From IMG/VR virus record IMGVR_UViG_3300021090_001101, positions 1 to 21,161 of that record: 21,161 nt of DNA. One strand, given 5' to 3'. How positions within the stretch are numbered: position 1 is the first letter of the stretch; each line of letters begins with the position of its first letter. Origin of the DNA: a virus. The notes under the pieces are model-generated. The model was not told the DNA's origin. It did no database searches and was given only the letters and a program-made list of their open reading frames with translations. Position numbers and translations under genes: made by a program. Below, one piece after another: positions 1 to 20,314 of this stretch.

Positions 1-2
1 AG

Positions 3-3132: not shown

Positions 3133-3139
3133 AAAAATC

Positions 3140-3526
3140 ATGGCATGTCCACAGCTTCCTGAATCACTCAACGGGCAAATCCAGACACTTCATGCGCGTT
3201 GTCAGGCTTTGGAAAAACGTGTAGCGACGTTAACGGCTGCTCTTACTTCGACGACTTCTTTTCTATCCACCGTGGCCGGAATAGTCGGTGTTTCGGTTCC
3301 GGGGGTGGTCGGCACCATCGCTACCTCACCGTTGGATCTGGCGGCTCTTGCGGGGCTGGTTCCAGCCGTTCCAACGATTCAGCTTGCCGGACTCATGCAG
3401 GCTCTTGATACGGTAGGTAACCCTTTGGATTTCGGGCTTCCAGCTTTTCCCGGTGGGGTTTTTCTAGACTTAGCCAATGACGCGGCCTGCGGGCAGCTTC
3501 ATACCTCTATTTTCGTGAAGCCATGA
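3140..3526 (+). CDS. Hypothetical small virion protein, 128 aa
   Basis: I do not recognise this protein. It begins at ATG 3140, seven bases after the beta-helix gene stop, with no good ribosome site, suggesting reinitiation from the upstream gene. Residues about 8-40 (QIQTLHARCQALEKRVATLT) look like a short coiled coil. An Ala/Val/Gly/Pro-rich middle follows that is hydrophobic but does not form a clear membrane helix. The tail contains NPLDFGLPAFPGGVFLDLAND. A coiled coil followed by a low-complexity hydrophobic stretch would suit a trimerising adaptor or a partner of the preceding beta-helix fibre. That is inference from adjacency. The alternative is an unrelated structural protein. Confidence 0.75.
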   Translation: MACPQLPESLNGQIQTLHARCQALEKRVATLTAALTSTTSFLSTVAGIVGVSVPGVVGTIATSPLDLAALAGLVPAVPTIQLAGLMQALDTVGNPLDFGLPAFPGGVFLDLANDAACGQLHTSIFVKP

Positions 3527-3550
3527 CTATCCTCTTGGAGAGAGTGCTGC

Positions 3551-5185: not shown

Positions 5186-5550
5186 GTATTTTTCGCCTGT
5201 TCACGCGCGGGAAAAAGAGTCCGCTCATTGCGAAGAAGGAAATTCCCGTGGGGGTGACCGACAATCCGCTTGATCCTCGGTTGGGGCATGGACCGGACAC
5301 GGGACCTCGTTCGCAAAACGAAGTGTACCTTGTGCTGTCCAAGGAAGAGCGTATGAAACCCTTTATGCGTCCCTATCGCGACACGTATGTCCACGTCAAA
5401 TGCGGGATGCGCACGAAAATGGGAGTCGCACTTTCAGAGACGTACGCAAGGGACCCGAAATTCTACGGCTCCACGTATTGTTTTGAATGTCAAATGCATC
5501 TTCCGGTTTCTGAGTTCAACTGGCTGGACGGTGCGCAGGTAGGTAGCTAA
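5182..5550 (+). CDS. Small protein with putative HxxC...CxxC zinc site, 122 aa
   Basis: The gene overlaps the stop of the gp25-like gene as ATGA and ends one base before the J-like gene, so it sits within the baseplate wedge operon. The N-terminal 45 residues are basic and Gly/Pro-rich and look disordered. The C-terminal half is compact, with His71-x-x-Cys74 and Cys100-x-x-Cys103 flanking a conserved-looking segment (ALSETYARDPKFYGSTYC). This is the arrangement of a zinc ribbon or treble-clef-like site, and His106 follows closely. I recall similar Cys-rich sequences ending in a PV.EF.W..G..VGS tail from phage proteomes but cannot name the family. A role as a baseplate component or as an assembly factor is inferred from position. 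Metal binding is inferred from the Cys/His spacing only. Confidence 0.8.
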   Translation: MSIFRLFTRGKKSPLIAKKEIPVGVTDNPLDPRLGHGPDTGPRSQNEVYLVLSKEERMKPFMRPYRDTYVHVKCGMRTKMGVALSETYARDPKFYGSTYCFECQMHLPVSEFNWLDGAQVGS

Positions 5551-5551
5551 A

Positions 5552-7432
5552 ATGACCGACGCTCCGATTGCCCGTGTCCAATATACGAATGCGGATTTTC
5601 GCACTCTGCGGCAGGAGCTACTCGCTCGCATCCCGTTTTTGACTTCGGGTAAATGGTCGGATCTCAACGAGTCCGATATCGGCATCGCTATCGTGGAGCT
5701 TCTTATTGGAATGCAGGATCAGAACCTCTTCTACCTCGATAAGAAATTTCTTGAATCACAGCTTCCCACGGCGCGTCAAAGAGTCAACGTCAAGAATCTC
5801 CTGAAGCTGATCGCCTACGACGTGCCGGGGTATGTCTCGGCCAGCGGGCAGGTGACGATCTCGGTGGCCCCGAGCGCTACTCCGCCCGCCTATGGGACGG
5901 TCAATGGACACGCCAATTCGATCCTGATTCCGTTGGCAACCGAGCTTTCGGGGCGGAGCGAGGTGGCCGACGCGGTTTCTTTCTATACCATCGAAGACCG
6001 CTACCTGACACAGCCACAGGCCGGGGCTTCAGGAGCGGTCACGGTAGGAGTCATTCAGGGACAGCGGTTGACTTCTCCTGAAACGTTTCAGGGGGATGGA
6101 ACGGCTAATCAGCGCTATGTCCTGCGCGTGCAGAATGTGGCCCGTGATCTCTTGACGGTTAAGATCGGCTCGACCGAAAATTCGGCAATCCCGTGGGTAC
6201 GGGTGACGACATTCTTGACTTCGAAGGCCAACGATCAGATTTTTGAAGCAGTGGAGGACGAAAAGGGGAACGTCTACATTCAATTCGGGGATGGGAAATT
6301 CGGTAAGGTTCCTCCGCTCGGGCAGAATATCTACGTTTATGCCGTCATCACGTTGGGTACGACAGGCAACCTTGCCGCTGGCACGGTGACGCAGGTAACC
6401 TCTTCAGTGCTCGACACGAATGGTAGTCCGGTGTCGTTGACCGCTTCGAATGTGCAGGCGATGACGGGAGGAGCCGATCCTGAGACAATTGAGATCGCGA
6501 AGCGTAACGGTCCGGCACAGTTGTCGGCGCTTTTCAGGGCGATGTCGAAGAGAGATTACATTGCGCTGGCACAATTGATTCAGGGCGTTGACAAGGCGAA
6601 TGCGTGGGGAGAGCAGGAAGAGCTTCACCCAAATATTAAGCTCTTTAACCGGGTCATGGTGACCTTTCTCGCGCTTGACTCGAATGGAAATCTTATCGAC
6701 CCACTGTCTCCTGAATATGCCGTGATTCGTTCGCAGGTGTCTACTCTTCTGGAGGAGCGTAAACCGGTTACAACTCGTGTCGTGTTTGAGCAGCCACAGT
6801 GGGTGGACTTGATCGTTTCCACGCAGGTGGCTGTGGACAGGACGCTCTACGACGAAAATATCATCGCGTCAGAGGCCAAACTGGCTGTACAGGATTATTT
6901 CTCGTACGTCAACGTAACCTTTGGACAGGACGCACGGCAGTCTCTTGTCTCCAAGCTGCTTCTCACTGTGCCGGGGGTTTCATGGGCAACGGTACAGCTT
7001 GCTCAACGGAAGGGCTCGACAGAAACAGCGCCATCCTACGGGGACATTCCGGTGTCTCGGTGGGAGCTTATTCGTATCAACGACTTTGATCAGCAGGGAA
7101 ATCCGGTACTCGGAACGGATGCTTCCGGCAAGGTTATCGAGCATGTCAGGATCTTCACGACCACGCAGGTGGATGCACCGACTCCGGATTTCCAGACAGA
7201 CGAATCGTTGAGCGGTGTGTTCCCGTCAGGGGCGAAACCGTTCATTGAAACGCCGTTCGGCGTCATCAACGATGTGAACATGTCGTTCGTCAACCCGACG
7301 AATCTGGCTGGCAGAACTGTCATGGTCTACGTTGATGGTTTTTGGGATTCTGGCGCTGTGGTTTCAGGCGCAGGAATTACGACCAGTACGTCGCCGCATT
7401 CAAGCATCAAAGTCGTGAGTTGGGGAGGGTAG
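5552..7432 (+). CDS. Baseplate J-like protein (gpJ/Mu gp47/T4 gp6-type), 626 aa
   Basis: This protein fits the baseplate J-like family. The N-terminus (about residues 1-95) has the characteristic helical opening, with TSGKWSDLNESDIGIAIVEL followed by a QDQNLFYLDKKFLESQLPTA segment and ..NVKNLLKLIAYDVPGY. The middle contains the family's beta-rich core with IQFGDGKFGKVPPLGQNIYV and the GTTGNLAAGTVTQV stretch (about residues 245-285). A region beginning PETIEIAKRNGPAQL and including MSKRDYIALAQLIQGVDKAN (about 310-355) matches the usual domain that ends with the wedge contacts. In contractile tails this protein dimerises within each wedge and links wedges into the ring. Its order after the gp25-like gene and before tail protein I is the P2-type order. 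The last 80 residues extend beyond the usual core and may anchor the next fibre. Confidence 0.92.
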   Translation: MTDAPIARVQYTNADFRTLRQELLARIPFLTSGKWSDLNESDIGIAIVELLIGMQDQNLFYLDKKFLESQLPTARQRVNVKNLLKLIAYDVPGYVSASGQVTISVAPSATPPAYGTVNGHANSILIPLATELSGRSEVADAVSFYTIEDRYLTQPQAGASGAVTVGVIQGQRLTSPETFQGDGTANQRYVLRVQNVARDLLTVKIGSTENSAIPWVRVTTFLTSKANDQIFEAVEDEKGNVYIQFGDGKFGKVPPLGQNIYVYAVITLGTTGNLAAGTVTQVTSSVLDTNGSPVSLTASNVQAMTGGADPETIEIAKRNGPAQLSALFRAMSKRDYIALAQLIQGVDKANAWGEQEELHPNIKLFNRVMVTFLALDSNGNLIDPLSPEYAVIRSQVSTLLEERKPVTTRVVFEQPQWVDLIVSTQVAVDRTLYDENIIASEAKLAVQDYFSYVNVTFGQDARQSLVSKLLLTVPGVSWATVQLAQRKGSTETAPSYGDIPVSRWELIRINDFDQQGNPVLGTDASGKVIEHVRIFTTTQVDAPTPDFQTDESLSGVFPSGAKPFIETPFGVINDVNMSFVNPTNLAGRTVMVYVDGFWDSGAVVSGAGITTSTSPHSSIKVVSWGG

Positions 7433-7433
7433 G

Positions 7434-7490
7434 GTGTTCAAGAAATTCTTGACTGCACTGCTTTTCGTTTCTGGTATCGCTGCCGCGCAA
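7434..7490 (+). other. Predicted N-terminal signal peptide of the 825-aa protein
   Basis: The N-region has Lys3 and Lys4, the hydrophobic core is FLTALLFVSGIAA, and the end is Ala-Ala-Ala before Gln19, fitting the A-x-A rule of signal peptidase I. No lipobox Cys is present at the cleavage point, so a lipoprotein is not suggested. Confidence 0.6.
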
Positions 7491-9911
7491 GAAAAATTCA
7501 GTCTGTTCAATCGGGCGTCTCCCACTCCCGGAGGTACGACGGGCTGTATTGTCTATGCTTCGACGACCACTTCGTTGGGGTGCATCGCACTCGGGATTAC
7601 GGGGTATGTGTTGACGGCAGGGTCAGCAGGACCCCATTATGCTCCGCCAACAACGGGGGTCGTTCCAACAGGTACTGGATTTCGCTATGTTGCGAGTGGT
7701 GTGGAGGCTGACACAGGCAAGCTCGTTGACACTTCTGATGTGAATAATAGTCAGATCACGTACGCGAAAATTCAGGACATGGGTGCCTCTTCGCGGCTTC
7801 TCGGGCGATCAACAACCGGAGCCGGGGTCATCGAAGAGCTTGCTGTCAGCACGGGGCTCACACTTGCTGGTGGTGCTTTAACCGTGACATCCCCCATCCT
7901 GACGACTCTTGGTGGCACCGGGACAATTACGAACATGACGGCGGGGGGCATCGTGTTTCCGGGTGTGGGTGGTCCGTACACTCAGGATGCGACTAACCTT
8001 TTCTGGAATGACGCGGATAATCGTTTCGGAATAGGAACAGCTACACCGGCAGGTCTGCTCTCTGTCAATCTCGCGTCTGCCTCCGGGAACGTGAGCACAT
8101 GGGACAGTACCTACGCGATCTTTGGTGCCGCAGGTTCGGCGCAGGGTAAGGCTGTCGGGATTGGGTACGACAGCGTTAGCGATTTCGGGGAGATCCGATC
8201 AATTCACCCCGGTACATCATGGAAGAACCTCGCTATCAGGGGAAGAAACCTCCTTTTTTACTATCAGGACGGCGCAGGCATCACTCAAGAGGGGATGCGG
8301 CTGGTTGAGACTACAGGCCGTCTTGGTATCGGGACAGCGGCGCCCACCTCACGTGCGACGGTCTCCGATAATACAGTGGCGCTTCCGGCACCTCCGACAG
8401 GAACTGTAATTCATGTTGGTGGAGCGAACGACACGTTAGCCCGTTTTGTTTTAGATTCCTTCGGCAACGCACAACCGAACATCACCTTGCGGCGGGCACA
8501 GGGTACGGCTGCTCTGCCTACTGCTGTTGTATCTAATGATATTCTTGCTGACTACGCGGCTCGGGGTCGTGGCACGACGGTCTATTCTACTGGCGCGGCT
8601 GCTTTGATAAGGATGAGTGCTGCGCAAAATTGGACCGATACGGCTCAGGGTTCTTATTTGACGTTTTTTACGAGTCCGAATGGGACGAACACACTTACTG
8701 AGATTGTGCGTATCGACAGTACCGGACTTGTTGGGGTTGGTACGACGGCACCCACGTCGCGGTTGACAGCTTCGGATAACGCGGCAACGCTTCCGGCGCC
8801 TACTGCTGGTACTGTTTTCCATGCCGCGGCGGCGGATACCATTAACAGCCGATTTACAATTGATGCCTTCGGTGCTGGCGTGCCTCTCTTCACCGCTCGT
8901 GCTGCTCTCGGTACGGGGGCGTCTCCAACTGCCCTCGCTCTCGATGGCGGGATGGGCGGGTTTGACTGGCAGGGACGCGGCACAACGGTCTACTCTAGCA
9001 CGGCGCGGGCTTTCATCCGGGCCGCTGCGGCTGAGGCGTGGACGGACAGCGCGCACGGTACGTATCTGCGGTTCGCCACGACGCCAGTTGGCTCAACAAC
9101 AGTCACTGAACAGATGAGGCTCGACGCCGCTGGTCGTGTTGGGATCGGTGTCACGGTGCCCGTTTTCAATCTCGACCTTAAGTACCCTGTTGGAGCAACG
9201 GATGTTTTCGGCTGGCAGTATGGGGCTGATGCCGCTTCCCGTAATTGGGGGTTGCGTCCGGATATAATTGAGTATGGTGATTTTGTCATCCAGACGAGTG
9301 CCGCGAAAACATCTGGTCAGCTTAATATTAATCGCTGGCGAATCGGTCCTACAGGTCTCATTACCCATAGTCTTGCTGGACTCTCTGGTACTAGTGGTAC
9401 ATTATTAACGACTCCCGGCACTCTTTTTACGCAGACGGCAAATGCCGTTACGACAGCGAACAACCTCACGACGCTCTTCGGAACCGGGGTCGGGACTCTC
9501 ACGCTCGCGACCAATACGCTCGCCATTGGGCGTACCATCGAGATTGAGATGGGCGGGTTTATTTCGGCAGCGGACGGCGGGGCCGGGACAAAGACTCTCA
9601 CTCTTAGTCTTGGCGGTGTTACCATCGCCACTGCGACGAGCGGAGCGACGTTCACGACCGTCGTGAACAACGCATGGCGAGCGAAGGCGTCCATCACCTG
9701 CCGCACGACGGGGGCGGGCGGGACCTGCATTGGCGGGGCGTCGTGGGAGACGCAGATCGCCACTGCCAACCCGAACGGGGTATTCGCCGTGGCGACAGCG
9801 ACGGCGGCGTGCAACACAACGGGAACGCTGGTAATAGACCTGAAGCTCAATAATGGGAACGCTACCGGGACCTCCACGACCACCTATGCCAGCGTGAAGA
9901 TCCTGAATTAA
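7434..9911 (+). CDS. Tail fibre-like repeat protein with Sec-type signal peptide, 825 aa
   Basis: The GTG at 7434 follows a strong ribosome site (GGAGGG, 7424-7429) just after the J-like stop. The first 19 residues form a textbook signal peptide: basic FKK, hydrophobic FLTALLFVSGIAA, then AAQ as a likely cleavage site. This is unusual in a virion gene. The body holds fibre-style motifs: LGRSTTGAGVIEELAVSTGL (about 120-140) and IGTATP/IGTAAP/VGTTAP/IGVTVP turns, like those of fibre and adhesin stalks. It also holds a duplicated 136-residue unit (residues 297-432 and 433-568). The last ~170 residues are an Ala/Thr/Gly-rich beta domain (RTIEIEMGGFIS...), likely the distal, receptor-facing tip. 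No intramolecular chaperone peptidase domain is visible. It may be a fibre, or a phage-encoded surface protein exported from the infected cell. Position between J and I favours a virion protein. Confidence 0.82.
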   Translation: MFKKFLTALLFVSGIAAAQEKFSLFNRASPTPGGTTGCIVYASTTTSLGCIALGITGYVLTAGSAGPHYAPPTTGVVPTGTGFRYVASGVEADTGKLVDTSDVNNSQITYAKIQDMGASSRLLGRSTTGAGVIEELAVSTGLTLAGGALTVTSPILTTLGGTGTITNMTAGGIVFPGVGGPYTQDATNLFWNDADNRFGIGTATPAGLLSVNLASASGNVSTWDSTYAIFGAAGSAQGKAVGIGYDSVSDFGEIRSIHPGTSWKNLAIRGRNLLFYYQDGAGITQEGMRLVETTGRLGIGTAAPTSRATVSDNTVALPAPPTGTVIHVGGANDTLARFVLDSFGNAQPNITLRRAQGTAALPTAVVSNDILADYAARGRGTTVYSTGAAALIRMSAAQNWTDTAQGSYLTFFTSPNGTNTLTEIVRIDSTGLVGVGTTAPTSRLTASDNAATLPAPTAGTVFHAAAADTINSRFTIDAFGAGVPLFTARAALGTGASPTALALDGGMGGFDWQGRGTTVYSSTARAFIRAAAAEAWTDSAHGTYLRFATTPVGSTTVTEQMRLDAAGRVGIGVTVPVFNLDLKYPVGATDVFGWQYGADAASRNWGLRPDIIEYGDFVIQTSAAKTSGQLNINRWRIGPTGLITHSLAGLSGTSGTLLTTPGTLFTQTANAVTTANNLTTLFGTGVGTLTLATNTLAIGRTIEIEMGGFISAADGGAGTKTLTLSLGGVTIATATSGATFTTVVNNAWRAKASITCRTTGAGGTCIGGASWETQIATANPNGVFAVATATAACNTTGTLVIDLKLNNGNATGTSTTTYASVKILN
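8322..9137 (+). repeat. Tandem duplication of a 136-residue fibre unit (2 x 408 bp)
   Basis: Residues 297-432 (8322-8729) and 433-568 (8730-9137) align end to end without gaps. Both start with [LV]G[IV]GT.APTSR.T.SDN, both carry LPAP..GTV, RF..D.FG, RGRGTTVYS and .WTD.A.G.YL.F, and both end with R.D..G. The two halves are clearly diverged, so the duplication is not recent. Further weak copies precede it (FGIGTATPAG) and follow it (VGIGVTVP). Confidence 0.85.
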
Positions 9912-9912
9912 T

Positions 9913-10014
9913 ATGCCCGGTTTCACCGAGACTCGGCGTTTCGTTCTATCGGCTGAGTGTGGAAACAATTCGATGATGTACGCCATCGTGGAAGTGAGGG
10001 GGGGTGGTAGCTAA
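9913..10014 (+). CDS. Possible 33-aa ORF bridging fibre and tail protein I genes
   Basis: An ATG lies two bases after the 825-residue protein stop. It opens a 33-residue frame (MPGFTETRRFVLSAECGN...EVRGGGS) that ends at TAA 10012-10014, overlapping the first codons of the next gene. It fills the only sizeable gap between the two large genes, and the overlap matches the packing of this operon. The fibre gene runs right up to it, but no ribosome site is visible at the ATG, so it would rely on coupling. I do not recognise the peptide. It could be a real tiny gene, or a spacer that chances to be open. Confidence 0.4.
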   Translation: MPGFTETRRFVLSAECGNNSMMYAIVEVRGGGS

Positions 10015-12922
10015 AGTGGCAACAAAGACTACGGCTCCGGTCGTTGACCGTCTGACACTCAGCGATCACACGTCGCAGGTAATGGGATTTCTCGACGATG
10101 AGAATTCCGGTGCTATAGTCTATGTGTATCTGAACACAAAAAGGGTCGCGACTGTTTTCACAATTCTTGACTCGAACGGTAGGAAGAGGTGGCGCGCGGA
10201 GACTTCGGATTTCGCGTTTGGTGGCGGAGTCCAGCACGTCAAATCCGGGGATCATTTTTATTTTCAGGCCAAAGCAGTCGGGAAGGATAAATCCGATCCG
10301 ACGAAAATCTACACGGTTCTTGGCATCGACCAGCCGGATACTCCTTACACTCAGGCGGATCTCTCACAGCCACTGGGAAACATTTACGAAAGTGAACGTT
10401 ACCTTGTCGGGGATGTTCCGTTGTTCAATGGTACGGACCTCTTCATGTCTGATATCTCGAATAACGTGGAGGAAGGAGTCACGGTATCGGTTTACGTGAA
10501 CGGTACGTTTCTTGGCATCACACAGTCGGATCGGACCGGGCACTGGACATTCGATACGCTCAGCGTTCCGGATTCACCGCTTCTTCCTTTGACGAAGAAT
10601 GACCGGGTAACGGCACGAGCTATTCGGTACGCTGTCAATCCGGCGGACGGCTTGAAAACTGAAGTGCTTGTGCCTTCCGCCGAATCACAGCCTGCCATCG
10701 TGCTCGGGAACTTCTATACACAGCGCCTGTTCGATTTTCTTCCGGCGCAGATGCAGACGGATGACAAGATTTCTGGCGACCTTCAAGTATTCACGAAAAT
10801 ACTTGGGATGACGATGGATGAAGTGAAGTCGTTCATCGACCAGTTCACCGACATTTTTGACATCGACCGGTGCGACACTAAGTATTTCGATGCGCTGGCC
10901 TATTTGCTTGGCTACCCCCTCAACAAACAGGACTCGTTTGAGTCTCAGAGGTTTCAACTCAAGAATGCCGTTGAGTTGTGGAAGCGCAAGGGCACCTTCG
11001 AAGTCTTTCGAATTCTTTTCTACCTCCTTGATTTCGACATCACGATCACTGAGCTTTGGACAGAGGACTACGCGCTTTTCTTCCCGACGATCATGGCGTC
11101 AAACCGCGTGGATTATCTCTACTATGACGACCAGAATAACCCGCTGCCGCCACCTGACACGGCTCCCGAGCTTCTCGAAAATGGCGGCACATGGTATAAG
11201 TCTCCTTATTTCGGAATTCATATCGACCCGCTCGTGCAGTACACTCCAACACCGGGGTATCCCTATAAGACTGATCCTGTGGCCTGTCCGATGGAATCGA
11301 ACACGTTTGCGATTGCCTTTTCGCCGGAGGACCTTAAATATCTGCTCGAACGGGTTGATTATTTTCGCCCTGCGCATACGGTGCTTGACTACATCGCTTT
11401 CATGTTTCCGATTTTCGAGTGCGGTCCGATTCCGGACGACCCGATGGAATTGGACGTGGACTGGTATCCGCAGGACCCCGGTTGGTACGCGCCGTACTGT
11501 CTGCCTGATGATCCGATTTACTACCGTGACGGTCACCACTCCACGCGGCCAGACGGGAAGGGTACGCTCGACCTCGGCGTGATGAGGGATTTGACAGGAC
11601 TTCATCCCTCCACCGATCCGACTATCAACATGAAAAGGCTGCCGGAACGTGGTTATTGTCATCCGGGAGAAATTCTGGAATTCGCGTCGGAGAGCGACAC
11701 CGAGGAACCATATTATTTCACTATGCTCAGAAATGGTTTTGGAATGTCTATCGCCGATCTCGCGCCTGACATGAATGATTGGCCTTCTCGTGATCCCTAC
11801 GACCCGCCACTTCGTGACGGGAAATACCGGTACGCCTCTCGGTTGCTTGTCTACCACAGCCATTTGGAAATGCTTCACAATTTCTTTCCTAGTACTCAAT
11901 ACGGAGTTTCTCCAAGAAGTTCTCTGGTTCAATCCAGTGAGGACGGGTATCTTTACGGCGTGACATCAGCAGGAGGTTTGCTTGGTTACGGCATGGTTTT
12001 CAAATTCGATTTAGATGGTAATTTGCTAGACACTTACAACTTCGGTACGTATGAAGCGAGAGACGTACAGTGTGGATTAACGGAAGCACCGGAACCGGGG
12101 ATTGATCCACTCAGGCTTTACGGCGCTTCGGGGGTAGGTGGTTCCGCCGATGCAGGGTGTGTATTCAAAATAAATCGCACTCCTATGGCTCTGACTGTTC
12201 TTCATTCATTTCAGTTAGGTAATGAAGGCTACCTTCCGTCTTCATCACTTGTGTACGCCGTTGACGGATATCTTTATGGTGTCTGTGCGGGTGGTGGTCC
12301 GTCTGGACAGGGTACTGTTTTCAGAATTCTTGGGGATGGCACTGACTTTAGCGTTGTTCACGCGTTTGGTGCAGACGGAGTGAATTCTTCACGTTCGTTG
12401 ATGCAGGCTTCGAACGGACATTTTTATGGAACTGATGCAGTCGGTAATGTCTTCAAGATGGATGGGACAACGTTTGCTATAACAGTGCTTGCAACAGGGC
12501 TTGATACACCCTATGGAACACTCGTGGAGTACAGTGGGTTTCTTTACGGTGTGACTAGTGCTGGTGGGACTAACGGCAGGGGATTGTTCTACAAGGTGGA
12601 GCTTGCGACTGGAGCCTATACTGCTGTTTCATCATTTCCGGTATCTCCCGGTCCTACTCAAACATTCGCGTTTCTTGCGCTTGCTAGTGCTGGTTTATTT
12701 TATGGTGTCAGCACTCAGGGTGGTAGCGGCAATGATGGGGTAGTGTTTTCTGTAAACACGGCGGGTACGATAACCACACTGGAATCGTTTATGCGCAACA
12801 TTACTGGCTTTAGTTCGAAAGCGGGATTACTCAAAGCGACCAATGGTAGTTTCTACGGAGTGACTCCAGTGGCTACTCTTATCGGTGGAAGTTATGGAAC
12901 ACTTTTCAGGTTCCTGTACTAA
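10004..12922 (+). CDS. Tail protein I (P2 gpI-like) fused to Ig-like domains and a seven-repeat propeller, 972 aa
   Basis: There are three parts. Residues about 18-92 and 150-210 look like two bacterial Ig-like domains (VSVYVNGTFLG...TGHWTF pattern). Residues about 233-480 resemble phage tail protein I: FYTQRLFDFLPAQMQ, DALAYLLGYPLNKQ, ELWKRKGTFEVFRIL, and the closing VDYFRPAHTVLDYI. A Pro/Tyr/Asp-rich linker follows. Residues 639-972 hold seven Gloeo_Verruco-type repeats (signature like LYGVTSAGG...GTVFK), ending exactly at the C-terminus. gpI links the baseplate wedge to tail fibres in P2-like tails, so fusing it to a beta-propeller suggests a built-in binding head. Translation starts at GTG 10004 or in-frame GTG 10016; GGAAGTGAGG (9990-9999) could serve either. 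It is several times longer than a normal gpI (around 180 residues). Family calls are from motif recognition. Confidence 0.87.
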   Translation: MVAKVATKTTAPVVDRLTLSDHTSQVMGFLDDENSGAIVYVYLNTKRVATVFTILDSNGRKRWRAETSDFAFGGGVQHVKSGDHFYFQAKAVGKDKSDPTKIYTVLGIDQPDTPYTQADLSQPLGNIYESERYLVGDVPLFNGTDLFMSDISNNVEEGVTVSVYVNGTFLGITQSDRTGHWTFDTLSVPDSPLLPLTKNDRVTARAIRYAVNPADGLKTEVLVPSAESQPAIVLGNFYTQRLFDFLPAQMQTDDKISGDLQVFTKILGMTMDEVKSFIDQFTDIFDIDRCDTKYFDALAYLLGYPLNKQDSFESQRFQLKNAVELWKRKGTFEVFRILFYLLDFDITITELWTEDYALFFPTIMASNRVDYLYYDDQNNPLPPPDTAPELLENGGTWYKSPYFGIHIDPLVQYTPTPGYPYKTDPVACPMESNTFAIAFSPEDLKYLLERVDYFRPAHTVLDYIAFMFPIFECGPIPDDPMELDVDWYPQDPGWYAPYCLPDDPIYYRDGHHSTRPDGKGTLDLGVMRDLTGLHPSTDPTINMKRLPERGYCHPGEILEFASESDTEEPYYFTMLRNGFGMSIADLAPDMNDWPSRDPYDPPLRDGKYRYASRLLVYHSHLEMLHNFFPSTQYGVSPRSSLVQSSEDGYLYGVTSAGGLLGYGMVFKFDLDGNLLDTYNFGTYEARDVQCGLTEAPEPGIDPLRLYGASGVGGSADAGCVFKINRTPMALTVLHSFQLGNEGYLPSSSLVYAVDGYLYGVCAGGGPSGQGTVFRILGDGTDFSVVHAFGADGVNSSRSLMQASNGHFYGTDAVGNVFKMDGTTFAITVLATGLDTPYGTLVEYSGFLYGVTSAGGTNGRGLFYKVELATGAYTAVSSFPVSPGPTQTFAFLALASAGLFYGVSTQGGSGNDGVVFSVNTAGTITTLESFMRNITGFSSKAGLLKATNGSFYGVTPVATLIGGSYGTLFRFLY
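11918..12919 (+). repeat. Seven Gloeo_Verruco (GloVer)-type repeats
   Basis: Seven copies of a 40-55 residue unit are visible. Each carries an [LF]YG core and then a hydrophobic F-[KRS] strand. The core segments are YLYGVTSAGG, RLYGASGVGG, YLYGVCAGGG, HFYGTDAVG, FLYGVTSAGG, LFYGVSTQGG and SFYGVTPVA. The fourth copy is short. The array ends with LFRFLY at the stop codon. Seven units match a seven-bladed propeller. The repeat family is known from environmental bacterial surface proteins. Confidence 0.8.
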
Positions 12923-12935
12923 AGGGAGAGGTTAA

Positions 12936-13484
12936 GTGAGAAAAAAGAAGTTGCATCCGGTTATTGAGGAAGTGCTTCGGAAGCACGAGCAGGCAGCGGA
13001 ACGTTATCTGCGAAAACTCAACGTGATTGAGCGGGCTCCGTGCGGGATCGGGTTCCTGACTCTCGTAACGGTGGATGAGCACGGAAACGTACGTGACACG
13101 GTGTCTGGAGCGAACATCGTCGTGAATCTTGGACGGAGTAGCCTTGCACACCTGCTGGCCGGGGATTCTTCGGATAACCACAAGATCGTCGCCATGGTAT
13201 TTGGTGACGGCTCTACGCCTCCTGCGATCACGGACACGGGGCTCAGTGGCAGCACGATCATCCAAAAGGACACTTCCTACGACTTCCCTGATGGAGCCAC
13301 AGGTCTTAAGGTGCGATTTACAGCCGTTGTCGGTTCGGCTGAGGGGAACGGCGCGGGATCGCAGATTTACCGCGAGGCGGCGCTCGTGAAGGGAAATGGG
13401 GACATCTTCTCGCGAAAGGTCAGCGGGTCTATCACGAAGGACAATACGGTGGTCCTAACTGCCCTCTACACTTTTATTTTTTGA
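12936..13484 (+). CDS. Hypothetical virion/tail protein, 182 aa
   Basis: The GTG at 12936 is preceded by a clear ribosome site (GGGAGAGG, 12924-12931). Residues 1-35 are a basic amphipathic helix (KKKLHPVIEEVLRKHEQAAE). The rest is beta-rich, with VFGDGSTPPAITDTGL near the centre and a C-terminal stretch EAALVKGNGDIFSRKVSG...TVVLTALYTFIF. That ending resembles the final strands of a common small phage structural domain (the pattern R.....I.K.....LT....I.F). This suggests a tail or collar component. I cannot assign a named family. It is the last plus-strand gene before the antisense cassette, and its stop lies one base from the stop of the convergent gene, leaving no room for a terminator. Confidence 0.82.
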   Translation: MRKKKLHPVIEEVLRKHEQAAERYLRKLNVIERAPCGIGFLTLVTVDEHGNVRDTVSGANIVVNLGRSSLAHLLAGDSSDNHKIVAMVFGDGSTPPAITDTGLSGSTIIQKDTSYDFPDGATGLKVRFTAVVGSAEGNGAGSQIYREAALVKGNGDIFSRKVSGSITKDNTVVLTALYTFIF

Positions 13485-13485
13485 G

Positions 13486-13998
13486 TCAGAAGAATCTGGT
13501 GCCGTTCAGGTTGAAAATCTCTTGCTTGAGCTTGGCGATCTCGGCTTCCTTTTTTTCGATCTCTTCGACGTGTTTGCTGGTTTCGTTGTAAATGTGAGCT
13601 TCGTGAGCCTCTTTGAGGATCTTGGGGTTGCTGTCCGCCCATTTCTGGATGTGTGGTGTTAGCTCGGCGATGACGGCTTCACGGGCGCTTCTGCTCGGCT
13701 CGGTTGCACGCAGATTGGTGTATGGACCAGAGCGGCTCATGTAGAGCGCGGTGGATGCTCTGAGCCCTGACGTACCGGTATCCCGCTGGATTTCCCACTT
13801 GATGCCGTAGCGGAAGAAGTGTGCCGAAACTCCGTAGCGTACACCGCGTATGGTCAGGCCAATGTTCGGGTTTGTGGCGCTGTTGGAATTGGCGTCCACG
13901 TAGATGTGGTTTCCCTGCGTGACGTGGAGCAGAACCGGCCCGAATTTCGTGTCGAGTTTGATGTTGCTTGGAGTGTTCTTCCATTCACGAGGGTTCAT
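13486..13998 (-). CDS. Hypothetical cassette protein with C-terminal coiled coil, 170 aa
   Basis: The frame is open far upstream, but the start is taken at ATG 13998. A strong ribosome site (GAAAGGAAG, complement of 14005-14013) lies just before it, and the ATG overlaps the upstream stop as TAATG. The resulting protein begins MNPREWKNTPSNIKLDTKFG. Residues about 10-70 look beta-rich (GPVLLHVTQGNHIYVDANSN). The C-terminus (about 125-165) is a strong heptad-like coiled coil (HVEEIEKKEAEIAKLKQEIF). I recognise no enzyme motif, signal peptide or membrane segment. It is the last gene of the minus-strand cassette and stops one base from the convergent virion gene. Possible roles, such as a moron, decoy or anti-defence factor, would be guesses. 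Confidence 0.82.
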   Translation of the reverse strand: MNPREWKNTPSNIKLDTKFGPVLLHVTQGNHIYVDANSNSATNPNIGLTIRGVRYGVSAHFFRYGIKWEIQRDTGTSGLRASTALYMSRSGPYTNLRATEPSRSAREAVIAELTPHIQKWADSNPKILKEAHEAHIYNETSKHVEEIEKKEAEIAKLKQEIFNLNGTRFF

Positions 13999-14303
13999 TA
14001 CAGGCTTCCTTTCTTGACTTCCCGAAAACGTAGCCATTTGATTTCTCCGTGGTGGTCTAATGGTCTCCAGAACACGGTGCCCGGCTTGGTGATGGCCACT
14101 TCGAGTTCTTCGTTGTTCCCTGTTTCGTCCATGAATTGCCGCAGGGAATAGGTTGACCAGCCGGATGATTGAGCGAGAACTGCACGTGTTGCAGCAGCGA
14201 AGGAATAAGCAGCGACGATTTCTCGCGTTTGCTTGCCTCTGTTGGGGGCCGCGGGGCATTCTCCGCGGGACCCGATGTAGCCGTAGACTTTGAGGTGCTT
14301 CAC
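13998..14303 (-). CDS. Hypothetical cassette protein, 101 aa
   Basis: It starts at GTG 14303, four bases after the stop of the upstream cassette gene (TGA-ctcc-GTG), indicating coupled translation, and its TAA overlaps the next ATG. The 101 residues contain an N-terminal strand (KHLKVYGYIGSRGE), an Ala-rich helix (TREIVAAYSFAAATRAVLAQ) and a C-terminal segment VAITKPGTVFWRPLDHHGEI. I recall small actinophage-type proteins combining an REIVAA..S helix, an ETGN segment and a PG.VFWRPLD segment, but cannot name a family or function. The fold looks like a small alpha/beta module. No catalytic motif is evident. Confidence 0.82.
   Translation of the reverse strand: MKHLKVYGYIGSRGECPAAPNRGKQTREIVAAYSFAAATRAVLAQSSGWSTYSLRQFMDETGNNEELEVAITKPGTVFWRPLDHHGEIKWLRFREVKKGSL
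14005..14013 (-). promoter_or_regulatory. Ribosome site GAAAGGAAG of the 170-aa cassette gene
   Basis: The same GAAAGGAAG word precedes the first cassette gene at 14876-14884. Here it lies six bases before ATG 13998 and decides that start over the longer upstream frame. Confidence 0.6.
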
Positions 14304-14307
14304 GGAG

Positions 14308-14868
14308 TCACGTCTTCACCGTGCGGTAGAGCCTGACGATCTGGCGGACCTGATCGGCGGTGAGGTCATGTAGTTTGAGGCTGAACGTGGTGGGACCGCC
14401 GTCGATACGGCCTTTGAAGTTGTCGTCACGGCAGTTGTGAAAGCTTTCGTGGTCGTAGCCGATGTTCAGTTCGGCTTCGAGAGCCCACAGAGCTTTCTGG
14501 CGCTGGTTTTCGTAGATGTTGTTCTTCTTGTAGCTCTCGCTAAGTTCCGCGTTCTCCTTGGCCAGCAGGGTGTGTTTTTCGCGTAGTGCATCCGCGTCGA
14601 TGACTTCGTGTCTGATGGTGACCACCCGATGCGTTTTGTGCCCACGATGGGGGTTCTCGCTTGTTTCCATGCGGATGGAGGCTCGGTTCTTTTTGTAGCC
14701 GTAGCCACTGTAGAGCCACGAATAACGGACTCCATCCACGGTCGGGAAGGCCTCCGGGATCTCCTGAAGCGCTTCCGGGAATTCTCTGTCTATCACTGAA
14801 GACGGCAGAGCTTCCTTGACGATGGCGAGGAGGGTCTTTTCCTTAGGGACCTGAATCAGGTTCGTCAT
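14308..14868 (-). CDS. Hypothetical cassette protein with central coiled coil, 186 aa
   Basis: The frame extends to 14919, but ATG 14868 is chosen. GAAAGGAAG lies seven bases upstream of it, and the longer version would begin inside the -35 box of the promoter described here. The protein opens MTNLIQVPKEKTLLAIVKEA. It has an aromatic, beta-looking stretch (VRYSWLYSGYGYKKNRASIR, about 47-66), a coiled coil (DALREKHTLLAKENAELSES, about 92-115) and a C-terminal segment ending HDLTADQVRQIVRLYRTVKT. No known domain is recognised. It is the first gene of the cassette. A VRY segment followed by a Tyr-Gly-x-Lys stretch and a coiled coil also appears in the third cassette gene. A distant paralogy is possible but not shown. 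Confidence 0.82.
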   Translation of the reverse strand: MTNLIQVPKEKTLLAIVKEALPSSVIDREFPEALQEIPEAFPTVDGVRYSWLYSGYGYKKNRASIRMETSENPHRGHKTHRVVTIRHEVIDADALREKHTLLAKENAELSESYKKNNIYENQRQKALWALEAELNIGYDHESFHNCRDDNFKGRIDGGPTTFSLKLHDLTADQVRQIVRLYRTVKT

Positions 14869-14875
14869 GACGGGC

Positions 14876-14884
14876 CTTCCTTTC
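14876..14884 (-). promoter_or_regulatory. Ribosome site GAAAGGAAG of the 186-aa cassette gene
   Basis: The site lies seven bases before ATG 14868 and matches the site of the third cassette gene. It sets the start codon and fits a short leader of about 16 bases from the predicted transcription start. Confidence 0.6.
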
Positions 14885-14890
14885 TCCATT

Positions 14891-14919
14891 AATGTAATAA
14901 CTAAATGGTTGTTTGTCAA
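14891..14919 (-). promoter_or_regulatory. Sigma70-like promoter of the antisense cassette
   Basis: On the minus strand there is a perfect TTGACA (complement of 14914-14919), then a 17-base spacer, then TACATT (14891-14896), four of six matches to TATAAT. Transcription would start near 14884 and reach ATG 14868 after a short leader. Consensus strength and placement suggest host RNA polymerase use, independent of the late tail transcript. Confidence 0.72.
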
Positions 14920-15056
14920 GGGGGGAGCTAACCCGTTGAATTTAGGGGATCTAGCGCGTTCTCAAAGGGAGACCATTCACTTTAGCTCGTTTTCCCGTGA
15001 CTATCTCTATGAAAATGAGGGTTACTACCCATCTAACGAGGAGGCTCACAGAAGAA

Positions 15057-15290
15057 ATGAGCAGTGCGCTTCCAACCTCTGTCATGGTTGTCTTCGACCC
15101 GGCCAAAGTTCCCGGAGCGCTCCAGTCGTTACGAGACCTCGCCACGGATCTCCGCGTCAAATTCATGTCGGCGGTGGCCGAGTTTCCGAACGTGCGGTCG
15201 CGTTTCGTCGCGTCCTCTCCGCTTGAGGCGGCACAGTTCTATGACGCGGCGTTGCGGTTGACCCGTGGTTCTGTCCCTCGTTCGCTGTAG
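15057..15290 (+). CDS. Possible small hypothetical protein, 77 aa
   Basis: The stretch 14920-15412 lies between the divergent cassette promoter and the large fibre gene. The best coding candidate is a plus-strand frame with a likely start at ATG 15057, preceded by GAGGAGG (15038-15044, 12 bases away). Starts at 15009, 15015 or GTG 14997 are also possible. The product, MSSALPTSVMVVFDP..., reads like a compact alpha/beta protein (PGALQSLRDLATDLRVKFMS and SPLEAAQFYDAALRL). I do not recognise it. Overlapping frames in other phases compete, so this is a moderate call. The rest of the stretch holds hairpins, listed separately, and no other gene that I can support. Confidence 0.45.
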   Translation: MSSALPTSVMVVFDPAKVPGALQSLRDLATDLRVKFMSAVAEFPNVRSRFVASSPLEAAQFYDAALRLTRGSVPRSL

Positions 15291-15296
15291 CTTCTT

Positions 15297-15332
15297 CGGG
15301 ACTATCTTCTCGGAGAGAAGGAGCCAGTCCCG
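15297..15332 (+). other. Nested hairpin, two-part stem
   Basis: An outer stem CGGGACT/AGTCCCG (15297-15303 with 15326-15332) encloses an inner perfect stem CTTCTC-GGA-GAGAAG (15306-15320). No T-run follows, so it is not a simple terminator. It could be an RNA processing or stability element between the small ORF and the large fibre gene. Confidence 0.5.
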
Positions 15333-15364
15333 TAATGGAACCGGGTACGGCAAGGTTACTGTAC

Positions 15365-15395
15365 CGCAGCGCGTCTCGCGCTGTGCTTTCATTTT
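15365..15395 (+). terminator. Probable rho-independent terminator upstream of the 1633-aa fibre gene
   Basis: Stem CGCAGCGCG (15365-15373), loop TCT, and stem CGCGCTGTG (15377-15385) pair over nine positions including one G-U wobble. A broken T-rich tract follows (TTTCATTTT, 15387-15395). The T tract is imperfect, so termination may be partial and read-through could set the level of the large fibre. A competing GGTAC/GTACC pairing (15344-15348 with 15361-15365) overlaps its base. Confidence 0.5.
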
Positions 15396-15412
15396 GAATG
15401 CGTGAGGCATAG

Positions 15413-18400
15413 ATGGCTACTATCGTAAGCACCACGACCGCTGCTGAATTTTTCGTTTCAACGGATGTCTATAAATTCGACGTAGACAACCGCCCGTTGC
15501 AACACCTCCTCGACAACGACATCGCCATCAACACGGAGCTTGTCGCGACGACCGCAGAGGTTGTTCAGGCACGCACGGGATTGTCGCAGACGTATGGCTC
15601 TCTCGACGCGCGGCTCGACGATCTGGAGCTTGCGGCTGGATATCCGCAGAAGCAGGTTGCCTACAACGAATTTCGGGCACGAGCGCAGGCGTGGCAAGCA
15701 CGATACGCCTCTGGCGCTCTTCTCCCTTTGACGGAAATTGTGAAAATCTCGGACACGTGGGCGTGGCCACCGGGAATAGCTTCTCTTAACGCCGATACGG
15801 GGTATGGCGGTTTCAACCAGATTTTTCTGCACGATGAGGGTGCGACGGTCGGGGCGAACCGTATTTTTCTAGGTAATGGTTTGGAGCCGCGATATTCCAG
15901 CGGTTCAGGCGTGTATGACTTCCTGAAATACCGTCCGCTTCATTTAAGCGTGGCAGGTTTCCTCATTGACCTGTTCAACGAGGCAGGTGGGGCGTTGACA
16001 ACGGGGCTCACGAATGAAATCTGCTTCAACCTTCCAGCGGCGCCCTCCGCGAATGGACGTGTGGATTTCTTGTGGCTTGAAGTCTGGTTTCATAACGTTC
16101 CGCGCACGTCTCTTGCATTCAAACCGTACGGGGCTGCCGGGTCTCTGTCTGCTGATCTGACAACGGCTGATGATTCTTCACTGCGTGGAAATGTCGGGTT
16201 TTGGGGAGGCAACAACGGAGATTACTTTCAGGTCAGGCATCGTCTTCGGGTGTCCACGGTAGCTAACCCTGACTTGAATCCGTTCGGGATGTCGGACACA
16301 GCCAACGTAATCGCACAGGGTGGAAATTCTAGTGTTCCGTCTTCTGGTACGTACACGCAGTTCCGCTCGGCGGCGAAAGAGCAGGGAGACCCCGGTTTAT
16401 GGGTTGCTGGAGACGGGTCATCGTCTTCCAAGAGCACGCAGGTGACGATAGATGGCTACGTTTATGCCATTCCGGTTGCTCTCGTGTTCCGGAGAAATAC
16501 GGGGCAGTGGACGATTTCAAACCAGAATGGCAGCCGAACCTCTGCGGGGGCGGGTACGTGGAGCACGTTGGACTCGGCGCGTCCTGACGGCTACTACCAC
16601 GACAAGATCGAAAAGGGGGATGTTACCCTCGTAGCGCCTTCTGCGGTTTCAGAACGAACGAATTTGAAACGTGTTCTGGAAGAATCTTTCGACCGCTTGC
16701 TTCGTGGCCAGTTGAAGACGAAGCATGGATATCTTGATTACAGCACCCTCTATGAGGAAGCTACTTTCGGTGGCACGAATGAGACAGTTGGAGGCACCGA
16801 GATCGTAGAAGCGATCTGTCTGGATGGTTCTGGAACGCAGGCCAAGACCGTGCAGATGAAGGAGCCCGGTGGGTCCCCGCTCTGCAAGCCGGATGATTTC
16901 CGTCGCCTTTTTTCTCCTCAGACGGAAACTCAGCCGGTTGGGTTTACTCTTGACATTCAGTCTTCGGTGGGGACTCCTGCGAATTTCGCTTCTATCGCGG
17001 CGAGTGTCGTTACGATCAAGGCTATTGGAAATGGTGGTGTTGGTTCGCCTACAGCCGTTGTTTCAGAAGCTCCGGTGCTCTGGTGGTCTGGTTCGAAAAA
17101 ACCTGTCGCTTTAACGGGATCGTGGTCTGGACTGAACACAGGCACTCTTACGGCCACGCTCAACACTGGTGATGCTAATTACTCGGCAACGGGGATCGTG
17201 GTCGGACTCGTCAAGGTTACCTTTCCGGCAATGGGTAACACGTTCAGGAAGGCGAATTCGGCGGTTGTCGGACAAATTTACACGCCACCAGCAAGTTCCG
17301 CGCTTGCTTTTTCGGAAGTGCAGTTGCTCGGGGCAGACAGAATTACCGGGCCTACTGGAGTTGCCGTCGATGCGACGTATTACTACCTTTGCGATAGCGC
17401 ACACAAGGCGTGGAAGGTCAATCGTTCTACGGGTGCTGTCGCTAATACGTTTGGTGTTCACAGCACGTCAGGCGCTGATAACACTCACCTGAATTCTCCG
17501 TCTAGCATTGCGGTGGACGGGTCAGGTAATGTTTACATCGCAGACACAAAAAATCATCGTGTTATCAAGCTCAGTTCGGCCATGGCTTATGTCGGACAGT
17601 TCGGTGTGACTGGAGTTTCAGGAACCGACAACTCCCACCTAAAATCACCGGAAGGTGTCGCAGTAGACGGCTCGGGGAATATTTACATTTCCGATACGTT
17701 GAATTACCGGGTTGTGAAGATTTCTTCAGCGTTTTCATATTTGTCGGCTTATGGTGTGGTTGGGGTCAGCGTAGCAGACAACACGCATACGGTTCTTCCA
17801 CACCATGCGTATTTCGGGGATGACTCCAATCTCTACGTGGCCGACCACATCCGGGTGTTGATAATCAATCCTTCGACGATGGCAGCTATTACGTTCATCG
17901 AAAATGGCTACCAGATTCCCGGTTCGCGTGTGAACACGGTTCAGGCTATCGACCCGAGCGGTTCAATAGCGTCTCTCGTCGAAGATTCCTCGGGGAATAA
18001 GTACGTCTTGCACTCGACTGGTGGTTTCGACATGCCGGGAAACCACGTCGGGTATTTCGTTAGCAAATACGATTCGAATTGGGCCTTCCAGCTACGTTAC
18101 GGAGCCCGGTGGGATACGGAAATAACGTACGGTGGGATCAATGCCGGTACTACAAATGGTCTTGTGTTCGGGCACGACATCATCCTCGATGAGGCCAACA
18201 ACGTTCTGCACATCTTTGATGGGCAGAATAGCGCGGACTCGGTTAATGGAGCGGTTTGGGAAAACAGGATCATTTCCATCAGGGCATCCGATTTGACACT
18301 TTATCAGGTGCGTGCGTCAAATCCTGTCCCAACGTCCGGAAGTGTGACACCTTACGGGCCGATTTATGGTAATCGTACGGGCTCGGGTATCACATTCGAT

Positions 18401-20314
18401 CCGATTGCTGTCTATAGTCTTCAGTGGCCGACGTTGAAAATAAGTGGGCTCGAATTCGATTCGGTGAATCATTACCTCTACATCGCATACGGTTCGTACG
18501 CGGACACTAATTACTCACAAGACGGTTGGATGCGGATTGAAAAATGGTCCATATCCGGAACGGACCCGAATAGCTGGACGTTCGTCAACTCGTTTGGTAC
18601 AATGGACGTGGCTAATTTTTCCGGTGTTGGTTTCCGTTGGCGGGCTTGGTTCTCTTCAGCAATGGATAGCACGCGAATGGTTTCCAATTTCCCCGGTAAT
18701 GGTGGAATGTCTATTTCTCGGGACGGTTCGGCACTTTTTATTACCGACCAGCACACTGTCATCAAGCTCAACACGTCCGGGACGAATATGGCCTATGTCG
18801 GCAGGTTCGGATTTACTACTATTCCCGGTAACGACTCGGGGCATATGTCCTTTTATCGTGCGGCGGGTCAGGTGTTTTACGGGATGATACAGGCGTTCGT
18901 GGCTAACGAAGCTGACACGAATGGACGTATCTATGTAAGTGATACTAATAACGGGCGTATTGTCATTCTGAAAAACCTCAACAATTTCAACACGAGTGGT
19001 TCTCCCGGTGCATGGGTTACCTCGTTCATTAACACGAGAGTTCAGCAATCCTTTAGTATTCCGTTCGGTCAAAGCTACGCGCTTACAACGGGTGCGGCTA
19101 AAATATGGTTCAAGCCGACGCTCGCGCCTTTTGGGTTGTGGGAGTTGAATGTTGCAGGAGTAAATCGTGACGCTCCTGTGTATGTAGACGCCAACGTTTC
19201 GACGTTTGCTACTGTTTATGCTCCGTTGTCGTTTTCCGCGCTGCCTTTTGGTATCGACTCGCTTGGGGTTTATGGGTTGGCAAAGGTTTCTGGTAAGTTG
19301 TTTTTCAGTGCGACGAACACGAACCAGCTTGCTGCGGTGCAGACGCCTGATTATCGGTTCCTTGGGGAGTGCGGTACTCCGGGGACTGGTGGGCATGACC
19401 GGGCCTCGTGGAGCCATCCACTAGGGCTTGCCGCGGATGCCTCTACTCGGACACTCTACATCTGTGACCACGCTAACGCACGTCTCATCATTTGCGATCA
19501 GCATGTGGCCTTTGTCGAACAGAATGTTGGGCGTGTGGAATTTCTACTTCCTCCCGATCAGACTTCGACATGGTACGGGCATTCGAGGTTCACGGCGTTT
19601 CAGGGAGTTTACACGCGTGGGCGTGCTCTCTTAACCTATAATTCAGGGGATGCGCGCACGTGGCATCCAGTCATTGCTGGCCGCAACGTGTTGGTGGCTC
19701 CTGAAAATATTCTTGTGACAACGATGGGTAAAGGCTCGTCTGAAGGACTTTCAGATCCCGGAATCAACGTGTACGCCAACTGTATTCAGCGTCTCCCTAT
19801 TCCGCTCAATGGTTTAAGTGAGGTGGGAGTGCGTCCGCAAGAATTCGCTCTTGCTGGTGGTATTTTGCCGAGCAACGCTCATTATCTGCTTCCTCTGCTT
19901 GGCGCTTTTGCGGCGTCTCGAAACAACTACAGGGGAGAAAATGAATCCTACTGGCAGCGTGACACGTATCTAGGTGGAGATGAGCGGCTAGTCCAGCGCG
20001 GACTTCGCGGCGGCGTACAGTGTGTGACTTCAAGATTTGCGGCATTGGTTGGTCCTAAACTTCTGACTTTTAATTGCGCTCAGATCCCCAACTATCGCTA
20101 CTTGGTGGCTCCTTTCCTTGTTGTGGTGGAAGGGGAGATTCTGCTGGCAGTCCGGGTTACGTCTTATTCCAGTTCTTCTTCTGCGGTGACTGGAGGGTCG
20201 CCCGTAAATTCACTTGGTACTAGTGCGAACGACATCATTGAGCTTTACCGCCCGGTTGGGCATCCGATGATTCCGCATAACGGTGAGTCTGACTTTACAC
20301 TCACGTTGGCATAG
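15413..20314 (+). CDS. Giant tail fibre with NHL-type propeller repeats, 1633 aa
   Basis: The ATG at 15413 has GAGG five bases upstream (15404-15407). The N-terminus carries VYKFDVDNRPLQHLLDNDI (about 19-37), a DNRPL motif I associate with fibre N-terminal anchors. It is followed by a short coiled coil and a beta-rich middle. Residues about 640-820 contain NHL-like units about 50 residues apart (SIAVDGSGNVYIADTKNHRV, GVAVDGSGNIYISDTLNYRV, FGDDSNLYVADHIRV). A second, looser set occupies about 1095-1370 (SALFITDQHTVIKLN, GRIYVSDTNNGRIVILKN, RTLYICDHANARLIICD). NHL repeats build beta-propellers that bind proteins, RNA or glycans. Here they would form binding heads on a fibre. The C-terminal ~200 residues are a separate beta domain. 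No chaperone peptidase motif is visible. It is the largest gene in the window. Confidence 0.87.
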   Translation: MATIVSTTTAAEFFVSTDVYKFDVDNRPLQHLLDNDIAINTELVATTAEVVQARTGLSQTYGSLDARLDDLELAAGYPQKQVAYNEFRARAQAWQARYASGALLPLTEIVKISDTWAWPPGIASLNADTGYGGFNQIFLHDEGATVGANRIFLGNGLEPRYSSGSGVYDFLKYRPLHLSVAGFLIDLFNEAGGALTTGLTNEICFNLPAAPSANGRVDFLWLEVWFHNVPRTSLAFKPYGAAGSLSADLTTADDSSLRGNVGFWGGNNGDYFQVRHRLRVSTVANPDLNPFGMSDTANVIAQGGNSSVPSSGTYTQFRSAAKEQGDPGLWVAGDGSSSSKSTQVTIDGYVYAIPVALVFRRNTGQWTISNQNGSRTSAGAGTWSTLDSARPDGYYHDKIEKGDVTLVAPSAVSERTNLKRVLEESFDRLLRGQLKTKHGYLDYSTLYEEATFGGTNETVGGTEIVEAICLDGSGTQAKTVQMKEPGGSPLCKPDDFRRLFSPQTETQPVGFTLDIQSSVGTPANFASIAASVVTIKAIGNGGVGSPTAVVSEAPVLWWSGSKKPVALTGSWSGLNTGTLTATLNTGDANYSATGIVVGLVKVTFPAMGNTFRKANSAVVGQIYTPPASSALAFSEVQLLGADRITGPTGVAVDATYYYLCDSAHKAWKVNRSTGAVANTFGVHSTSGADNTHLNSPSSIAVDGSGNVYIADTKNHRVIKLSSAMAYVGQFGVTGVSGTDNSHLKSPEGVAVDGSGNIYISDTLNYRVVKISSAFSYLSAYGVVGVSVADNTHTVLPHHAYFGDDSNLYVADHIRVLIINPSTMAAITFIENGYQIPGSRVNTVQAIDPSGSIASLVEDSSGNKYVLHSTGGFDMPGNHVGYFVSKYDSNWAFQLRYGARWDTEITYGGINAGTTNGLVFGHDIILDEANNVLHIFDGQNSADSVNGAVWENRIISIRASDLTLYQVRASNPVPTSGSVTPYGPIYGNRTGSGITFDPIAVYSLQWPTLKISGLEFDSVNHYLYIAYGSYADTNYSQDGWMRIEKWSISGTDPNSWTFVNSFGTMDVANFSGVGFRWRAWFSSAMDSTRMVSNFPGNGGMSISRDGSALFITDQHTVIKLNTSGTNMAYVGRFGFTTIPGNDSGHMSFYRAAGQVFYGMIQAFVANEADTNGRIYVSDTNNGRIVILKNLNNFNTSGSPGAWVTSFINTRVQQSFSIPFGQSYALTTGAAKIWFKPTLAPFGLWELNVAGVNRDAPVYVDANVSTFATVYAPLSFSALPFGIDSLGVYGLAKVSGKLFFSATNTNQLAAVQTPDYRFLGECGTPGTGGHDRASWSHPLGLAADASTRTLYICDHANARLIICDQHVAFVEQNVGRVEFLLPPDQTSTWYGHSRFTAFQGVYTRGRALLTYNSGDARTWHPVIAGRNVLVAPENILVTTMGKGSSEGLSDPGINVYANCIQRLPIPLNGLSEVGVRPQEFALAGGILPSNAHYLLPLLGAFAASRNNYRGENESYWQRDTYLGGDERLVQRGLRGGVQCVTSRFAALVGPKLLTFNCAQIPNYRYLVAPFLVVVEGEILLAVRVTSYSSSSSAVTGGSPVNSLGTSANDIIELYRPVGHPMIPHNGESDFTLTLA
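17330..17880 (+). repeat. NHL-type repeats, first cluster
   Basis: About four units spaced near 50 residues, at about residues 649, 699, 749 and 799. The signature is x-VAVDGSGN-[VI]YI-[AS]DT-x-N-x-RV-[IV]K. Each is followed by an [FY]G...DN[ST]H segment (FGVHSTSGADNTH, FGVTGVSGTDNSH, YGVVGVSVADNTH). DNA copies are diverged, so selection acts on protein. Confidence 0.75.

Follow-up and report, generated by a model that had tools for sequence, protein, structure and literature searches.

Attenuators are built from mutually exclusive terminator and antiterminator hairpins. The put RNA of phage HK022, in the part of the literature account cited here, is about 70 nt long, consists of two stem-loops and is found downstream of early promoters (PMC9378689), and an excerpt of a study of Tn916 points to a likely cis-acting RNA antiterminator in that system (PMC11658703). 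For phage LUZ100, part of the published report describes many transcription units that its authors put down to read-through across termination sites (PMC10134795). Here we describe a phage locus at which three successive hairpins precede a giant gene, and for which an earlier note had suggested that alternative folding controls read-through into that gene. We consider it probable, with real room for doubt, that the hairpins are the 3′ end and the weak, leaky terminator of an accessory, moron-like cassette, and not a switch for the giant gene.

The locus lies in a virus record of 21,161 bases, referred to here as the window. Its plus strand carries a tail array encoding a gp25-like wedge protein with an intein, baseplate J-like, tail-fibre-like and Tail_P2_I-like proteins, a 182-aa member of phrog_5417 (unknown function) and a 1633-aa NHL-repeat protein; the ORF of the last of these is the gene of 1633 residues that had been noted after the hairpins. 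The intein carries an HNH domain and splits the gp25-like baseplate gene (window 3551-5185), and a C-terminal splice-junction region of like kind is visible in the relative L002. Outside that relative, the giant protein has a distant match to the uncultured phage LR745208.1 (485 kb), which covers part of residues 1-362 (32.6% over 42%), and a Methanohalobium MAG contig gives a 34% match to residues 264-330. No tRNA or tmRNA genes were found. Rfam gave no match in the window at the gathering score, and for 15000-15600 only two sub-threshold matches (E 5.2 and 7.5). The gap of 122 nt between a small ORF of 97 aa and the giant gene (15291-15412) houses the hairpins, which we call H1, H2 and H3.

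Table 1. Features of the extra block, the hairpin region and the giant gene (window coordinates; P, pairing probability; d, terminator score).
Feature	Position	Strand	Remarks
Block missing from the relative's locus, 1.9 kb	13485-15390 (right edge approximate)		From locus comparison
Block ORF 3, 170 aa	13486-13998	-	ATG overlaps the stop of ORF 2
Block ORF 2, 101 aa from GTG	13998-14303	-	phrog_22624, phage family of unknown function, E 3.9e-13
Block ORF 1, 186 aa	14308-14868	-	ATG; Shine-Dalgarno-like GGAAGG upstream
Sigma-70-type promoter match, TTGACA-17-TACATT	14891-14919	-	Before the minus-strand ORFs; consensus match only
Small ORF, last before the hairpins	14997-15290	+	97 aa from GTG; 93 from ATG 15009; 77 from ATG 15057
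H1, nested hairpin just 3′ of the stop of the 97-aa ORF	15297-15332	+	-17.2 kcal/mol folded alone
H2, 7-bp hairpin, context-dependent	15344-15365	+	P 0.25-0.97 in ten contexts
H3 and broken T tract, weak, intrinsic-terminator-like	15365-15395	+	P 0.79-1.00; d 5.6
Giant NHL-repeat protein gene, 1633 aa	15413-20314	+	3′ of the hairpins

RNA folding recovered all three structures where the earlier note had placed them: a nested hairpin (H1), a GGTAC/GTACC pairing (H2) and a GC-rich stem (H3). H1 starts 6 nt past the stop codon that closes the 97-aa ORF. Its 7-bp outer stem (15297-15303 with 15326-15332) has a P of 0.92-0.99; across the nine sequence contexts that contain H1, the outer-stem pair lies at 0.93-0.99 in seven and at 0.26 and 0.43 in the remaining two. 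The inner stem (15305-15311 with 15315-15321) reaches 0.38-0.61. The arms of H2 (15344-15350 and 15359-15365) make 7 bp including one G-U pair. H3 has an 8-bp stem (15366-15373 with 15377-15384) and, when folded alone, 9 bp from 15365 to 15385 around a 3-nt loop (-14.3 kcal/mol). All three coexist in the minimum-energy fold of 15280-15412, and across the contexts tried H1 and H3 mostly fold strongly, whereas H2 varies with its surroundings. A 20-codon ATG ORF (15335-15397) covers H2, H3 and the T tract and stops 15 nt 5′ of the giant gene.

Gene order puts the hairpins in another light. One close relative was found for the giant gene, a single contig (L002, L004 and L010 are one and the same) in which the first part of the giant protein is 63% identical. 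There the Tail_P2_I-like gene is followed by the 187-aa gene and then, across a gap of 82 nt, by the giant gene; in the window, 1,928 nt separate the corresponding neighbours. The relative's gap, folded with a few flanking bases, has a z of +1.27, 183 of 200 shuffles being at least as stable. Similarity to the relative resumes at about 15395, just after the T tract of H3, in a short match that is weak evidence for the exact edge. Because the hairpins lie within a block that the relative lacks, they resemble a cassette end more than a conserved leader of the giant gene. We infer a gain of the block here and not a loss in the relative, two histories that look the same with one relative. The strain L003, which is near-identical (13,635 nt with 6 mismatches), has the left junction of the block and then ends. 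No repeats bounding the block (13485 to ~15390) were found, the nearest to its ends being a 14-nt inverted pair (13487-13500 with 15816-15829).

The block is one of several differences from the relative. The 825-aa tail-fibre-like gene (7434-9911) and the C-terminal third of the Tail_P2_I-like protein (~11810-12922; 972 aa versus 619) are also without counterparts at the relative's locus, so that, counting the block, three or more large pieces set the two regions apart. Searches beyond this pair returned little. No phage record matched 14800-15800 at the DNA level and no viral contig held an exact copy of a 32-base piece; the first part of the giant protein found one contig among viral contigs, one short match among genome contigs and one distant phage record, the contig scans resting on short peptide patterns that can miss relatives.

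Within the block, three ORFs run on the minus strand and the small ORF that precedes the hairpins runs on the plus strand. The frame of the small ORF has the best codon score of the six, though a low one; no relative of it was found, one of the searches showing little for lack of a positive control. Block ORF 1 (186 aa) matched no family above chance and no relatives of it were found, one of the searches again lacking a positive control. Block ORF 2 (101 aa) has relatives in 9 phage records, which amount to five phages (four of Arthrobacter, one of Rhodococcus) because several are listed twice, and none was found in viral contigs. In one phage, Sonali, the phrog_22624 gene adjoins an integrase gene. 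The end of block ORF 3 (170 aa) and the stop of the 182-aa gene are 1 nt apart; no relatives of this ORF were found, a longer reading of it matching the near-identical strain only. For block ORFs 1 and 3, scored from earlier guesses of their starts, codon usage gives the minus-strand frames no advantage over the antisense ones, so for these two it is the layout that argues for genes. The promoter match ahead of the minus-strand ORFs (14919-14891) agrees with the consensus at 10 of 12 positions and is the best of 13 matches in 1-20000, where 12.0 are expected at 9/12 or better. A d scan of the window found no terminator for these ORFs.

The suggested control of read-through by alternative folding was not borne out. 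H3 persists in all ten contexts (P 0.79-1.00), holding its 5′ arm open carries an ensemble free-energy penalty of 8.6-11.7 kcal/mol (three contexts), and neither the ten contexts nor three constrained folds yielded a structure with upstream sequence serving as antiterminator to H3. The proposed overlap of H2 with the base of the terminator stem holds for one base, C15365, which H2 and H3 could share, and goes no further. H2 does have a competitor, a helix around H1 (15285-15291 with 15344-15350; P 0.49-0.74 in three longer contexts), and its own P falls to 0.25-0.46 in the five contexts whose upstream end is at 15260 or beyond; neither H2 nor the competing helix touches H3. The exclusion between these two structures, and the 20-codon ORF that runs across H2 and H3, are what an attenuator could build on, with alternatives of H2 and H3 governing read-through into the giant gene and translation of that ORF perhaps choosing between them. 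Yet the stability of H3 and the cost of its removal, the single base common to H2 and H3, and the relative's 82-nt gap without such structure (in a relative that lacks the entire block) all speak against it, and an ORF of 20 codons would be unremarkable in length within 122 nt. We therefore regard an attenuator as very unlikely.

Another way of bypassing H3 would be an RNA like put, in which the transcript of H1 and H2 makes the polymerase ignore H3 and later terminators. H1 and H2 do present two stem-loops over 69 nt ahead of a terminator-like hairpin, but the one plus-strand promoter candidate upstream of them is poor (9/12, the second hexamer having T as its second base), H2 is unstable once its upstream flank is included and Rfam gave no match, although Rfam may not hold put. 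This explanation is scarcely credible.

Folding of the isolated region also pairs 15285-15294 with the ribosome-binding site of the giant gene (15404-15412; P 0.72-0.83). The helix keeps a P of 0.56 in 15280-15430 and has 0.00-0.03 in seven other contexts with a readable probe pair, two of which start at 15291 and thus cut it. Hiding of the ribosome-binding site was rejected as a function, since the site is hidden to the same degree in 113 of 200 shuffles and the effect is lost with longer flanks. Also discarded was a motif, CATT-TGAAT, that stands before the giant gene in both phages, with 13 scattered copies in 140 kb of the relative. The same helix, together with an H1 that begins so close to a stop codon and is stable on its own, could be read as a post-transcriptional arrangement that protects the 3′ end of the cassette mRNA, offers a cleavage point at which this mRNA would be parted from that of the giant gene or brings the stop codon near the ribosome-binding site of the giant gene. 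We think this quite unlikely, given how the helix behaves with other flanks, an access to the site no lower than in shuffled sequences, and the shortness of H1 beside classic RNase III sites, which are long duplexes.

The hairpin region is more stable than most shuffled versions of itself. For 15297-15395, z is -3.3, with 7 of 1000 dinucleotide shuffles as stable and 993 less so; the whole gap (15291-15412) gives z -2.3 (22/1000 as stable), both for coordinates picked post hoc because they looked structured, and 15280-15420 gives z -2.5 (4/200). When 150 pieces of 99 nt were drawn at random from the window, z was -2.5 or lower for 2 of them and -3 or lower for none. We also ran a scan with 383 regular tiles on each strand, to which one 110-nt piece placed on the finding (15290-15399) was added. 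On the plus strand that piece ranked 6 by z and 21 by energy among the 384, and ORFs contain all five of the pieces with a lower z. Tile 15300-15409, the closest of the regular ones, came 36th on the plus strand and 1st on the minus strand (z -4.18). An inverted repeat folds on either strand; on the minus strand, no T tract follows the stem.

As a terminator, H3 is a weak candidate in a suggestive place. Its stem is GC-rich, of at least 5 bp and with a short loop, as in intrinsic terminators, and the tract directly 3′ of it, CTTTCATTTT, has 7 T in 10 with C as its first base. The description of the last hairpin as terminator-like with a broken T tract is supported, the tract being interrupted by C and A; the absence of a good promoter between the hairpins and the giant gene was likewise upheld, with no match of 9/12 or better there. 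A consensus terminator scan of 14000-16500 gave 8 sites against an expected 3.3; over 1-20000 it gave 29 against an expected 22.3 (sd 5.5), with H3 at the head of the list. Among unbulged hairpins scored with the d formula of d'Aubenton-Carafa, H3 (5.6) is the only one above zero in the window on either strand. Across 24 shuffles there were, per strand, 1.6 hairpins with d above zero and 0.875 with d of at least 5, so the score of H3 alone is not beyond chance. It is the position in the 122-nt gap that carries the weight, whereas the distance of 75 nt from the stop of the small ORF to the start of H3 counts against a terminator.

These figures bear on a further alternative, that the hairpins are chance GC-rich inverted repeats in the gap and neither terminate nor regulate. 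The frequency of such d scores in shuffled strands, the five plus-strand pieces with lower z inside ORFs, the interrupted T tract and the failure to find the element in any relative among phage records and viral and genome contigs all fit a lack of function. The z of the region, matched by so few shuffles, does not, and nor does the placing of the only positive terminator score of the window in a short gap after an ORF and before a gene start. On balance we hold this alternative to be unlikely.

As a yardstick, and a loose one, the same d scan was run on 140,000 of the relative's 141,027 bases, without a shuffle control and against ORFs of at least 80 aa picked greedily by a mechanical rule. 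It gave 25 terminator-like matches, 14 of them within the picked ORFs and 8 at most 150 nt after a same-strand stop. Of these eight, five have d 17.9-52.7 at 17-29 nt from the stop, one has d 13.5 at 126 nt and two have d 1.6-2.6 at 20-21 nt. Judged by these matches, the lineage seems to use intrinsic terminators shortly 3′ of stop codons, and H3, with its broken T tract, its greater distance from the stop and a score far below the best of these, would be at best a weak member of the set. The scan of L003 gave no terminator matches. In L020, the upstream part of the near-identical strain, a hairpin at 4569-4599 has d 37.3 and lies 31 nt after a stop; it sits inside another picked ORF, and plus-strand ORFs continue downstream.

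Under the cassette reading that we favour, H1-H3 would form the 3′ untranslated region of the small plus-strand gene (14997-15290) that ends the cassette, itself lodged between two genes of the phage tail array. H3 and its T-rich tail would provide a partial stop for transcripts initiated in the cassette, limiting their run into the giant gene; H1 would probably just protect or space the 3′ end, and H2 would be incidental. The giant gene would be reached by read-through of the late tail transcript, either through a leaky terminator or by a late RNA polymerase that has been made termination-resistant. On this reading H3 would both terminate and leak, and presumably the small ORF is translated and the promoter match works. 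A more elaborate version, in which H1 and H2, alone or together with translation of the small ORF, set how frequently polymerase gets past H3 so that the cassette meters expression of the giant gene, strikes us as highly improbable. If the cassette reading is right, the locus holds a tidy but ordinary accessory cassette inside a tail array, equipped with a promoter of its own and ending in a terminator that leaks, and the giant gene stays on its transcript despite the insertion. The lesson is to compare a relative's gene order before proposing a switch from apparent leader structure.

Set beside the systems introduced above, the locus shares with attenuators a series of hairpins before a gene, the last of them terminator-like, and departs from them in that no fold removing H3 was found and the hairpins follow an accessory ORF. 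With HK022 put, as the cited part of the source describes it, the likeness is one of size, two stem-loops in about 70 nt before a terminator-like site; put has an early promoter upstream, whereas here the candidate is poor and the second stem-loop is unstable in context (PMC9378689). The intrinsic terminators among the late genes of phage SPP1, to the extent that an excerpt of their description covers them, also combine a GC-rich stem-loop with a T-rich tail between same-strand genes, and as at H3 no promoter match precedes the next gene (PMC6316719). In contrast to these, the putative terminator H3 has a T tract broken by C and A, a near-threshold score and two hairpins upstream. Phage morons, accessory units set between core genes and marked by a promoter, a terminator and transcription of their own, offer the remaining comparison. 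The block differs from them in having three opposite-strand ORFs and one same-strand ORF, with a minus-strand terminator not found; it resembles them as a block of small ORFs between genes that adjoin in the one relative, and in having a sigma-70-like promoter match as well as, at one of its ends, a terminator-like hairpin.
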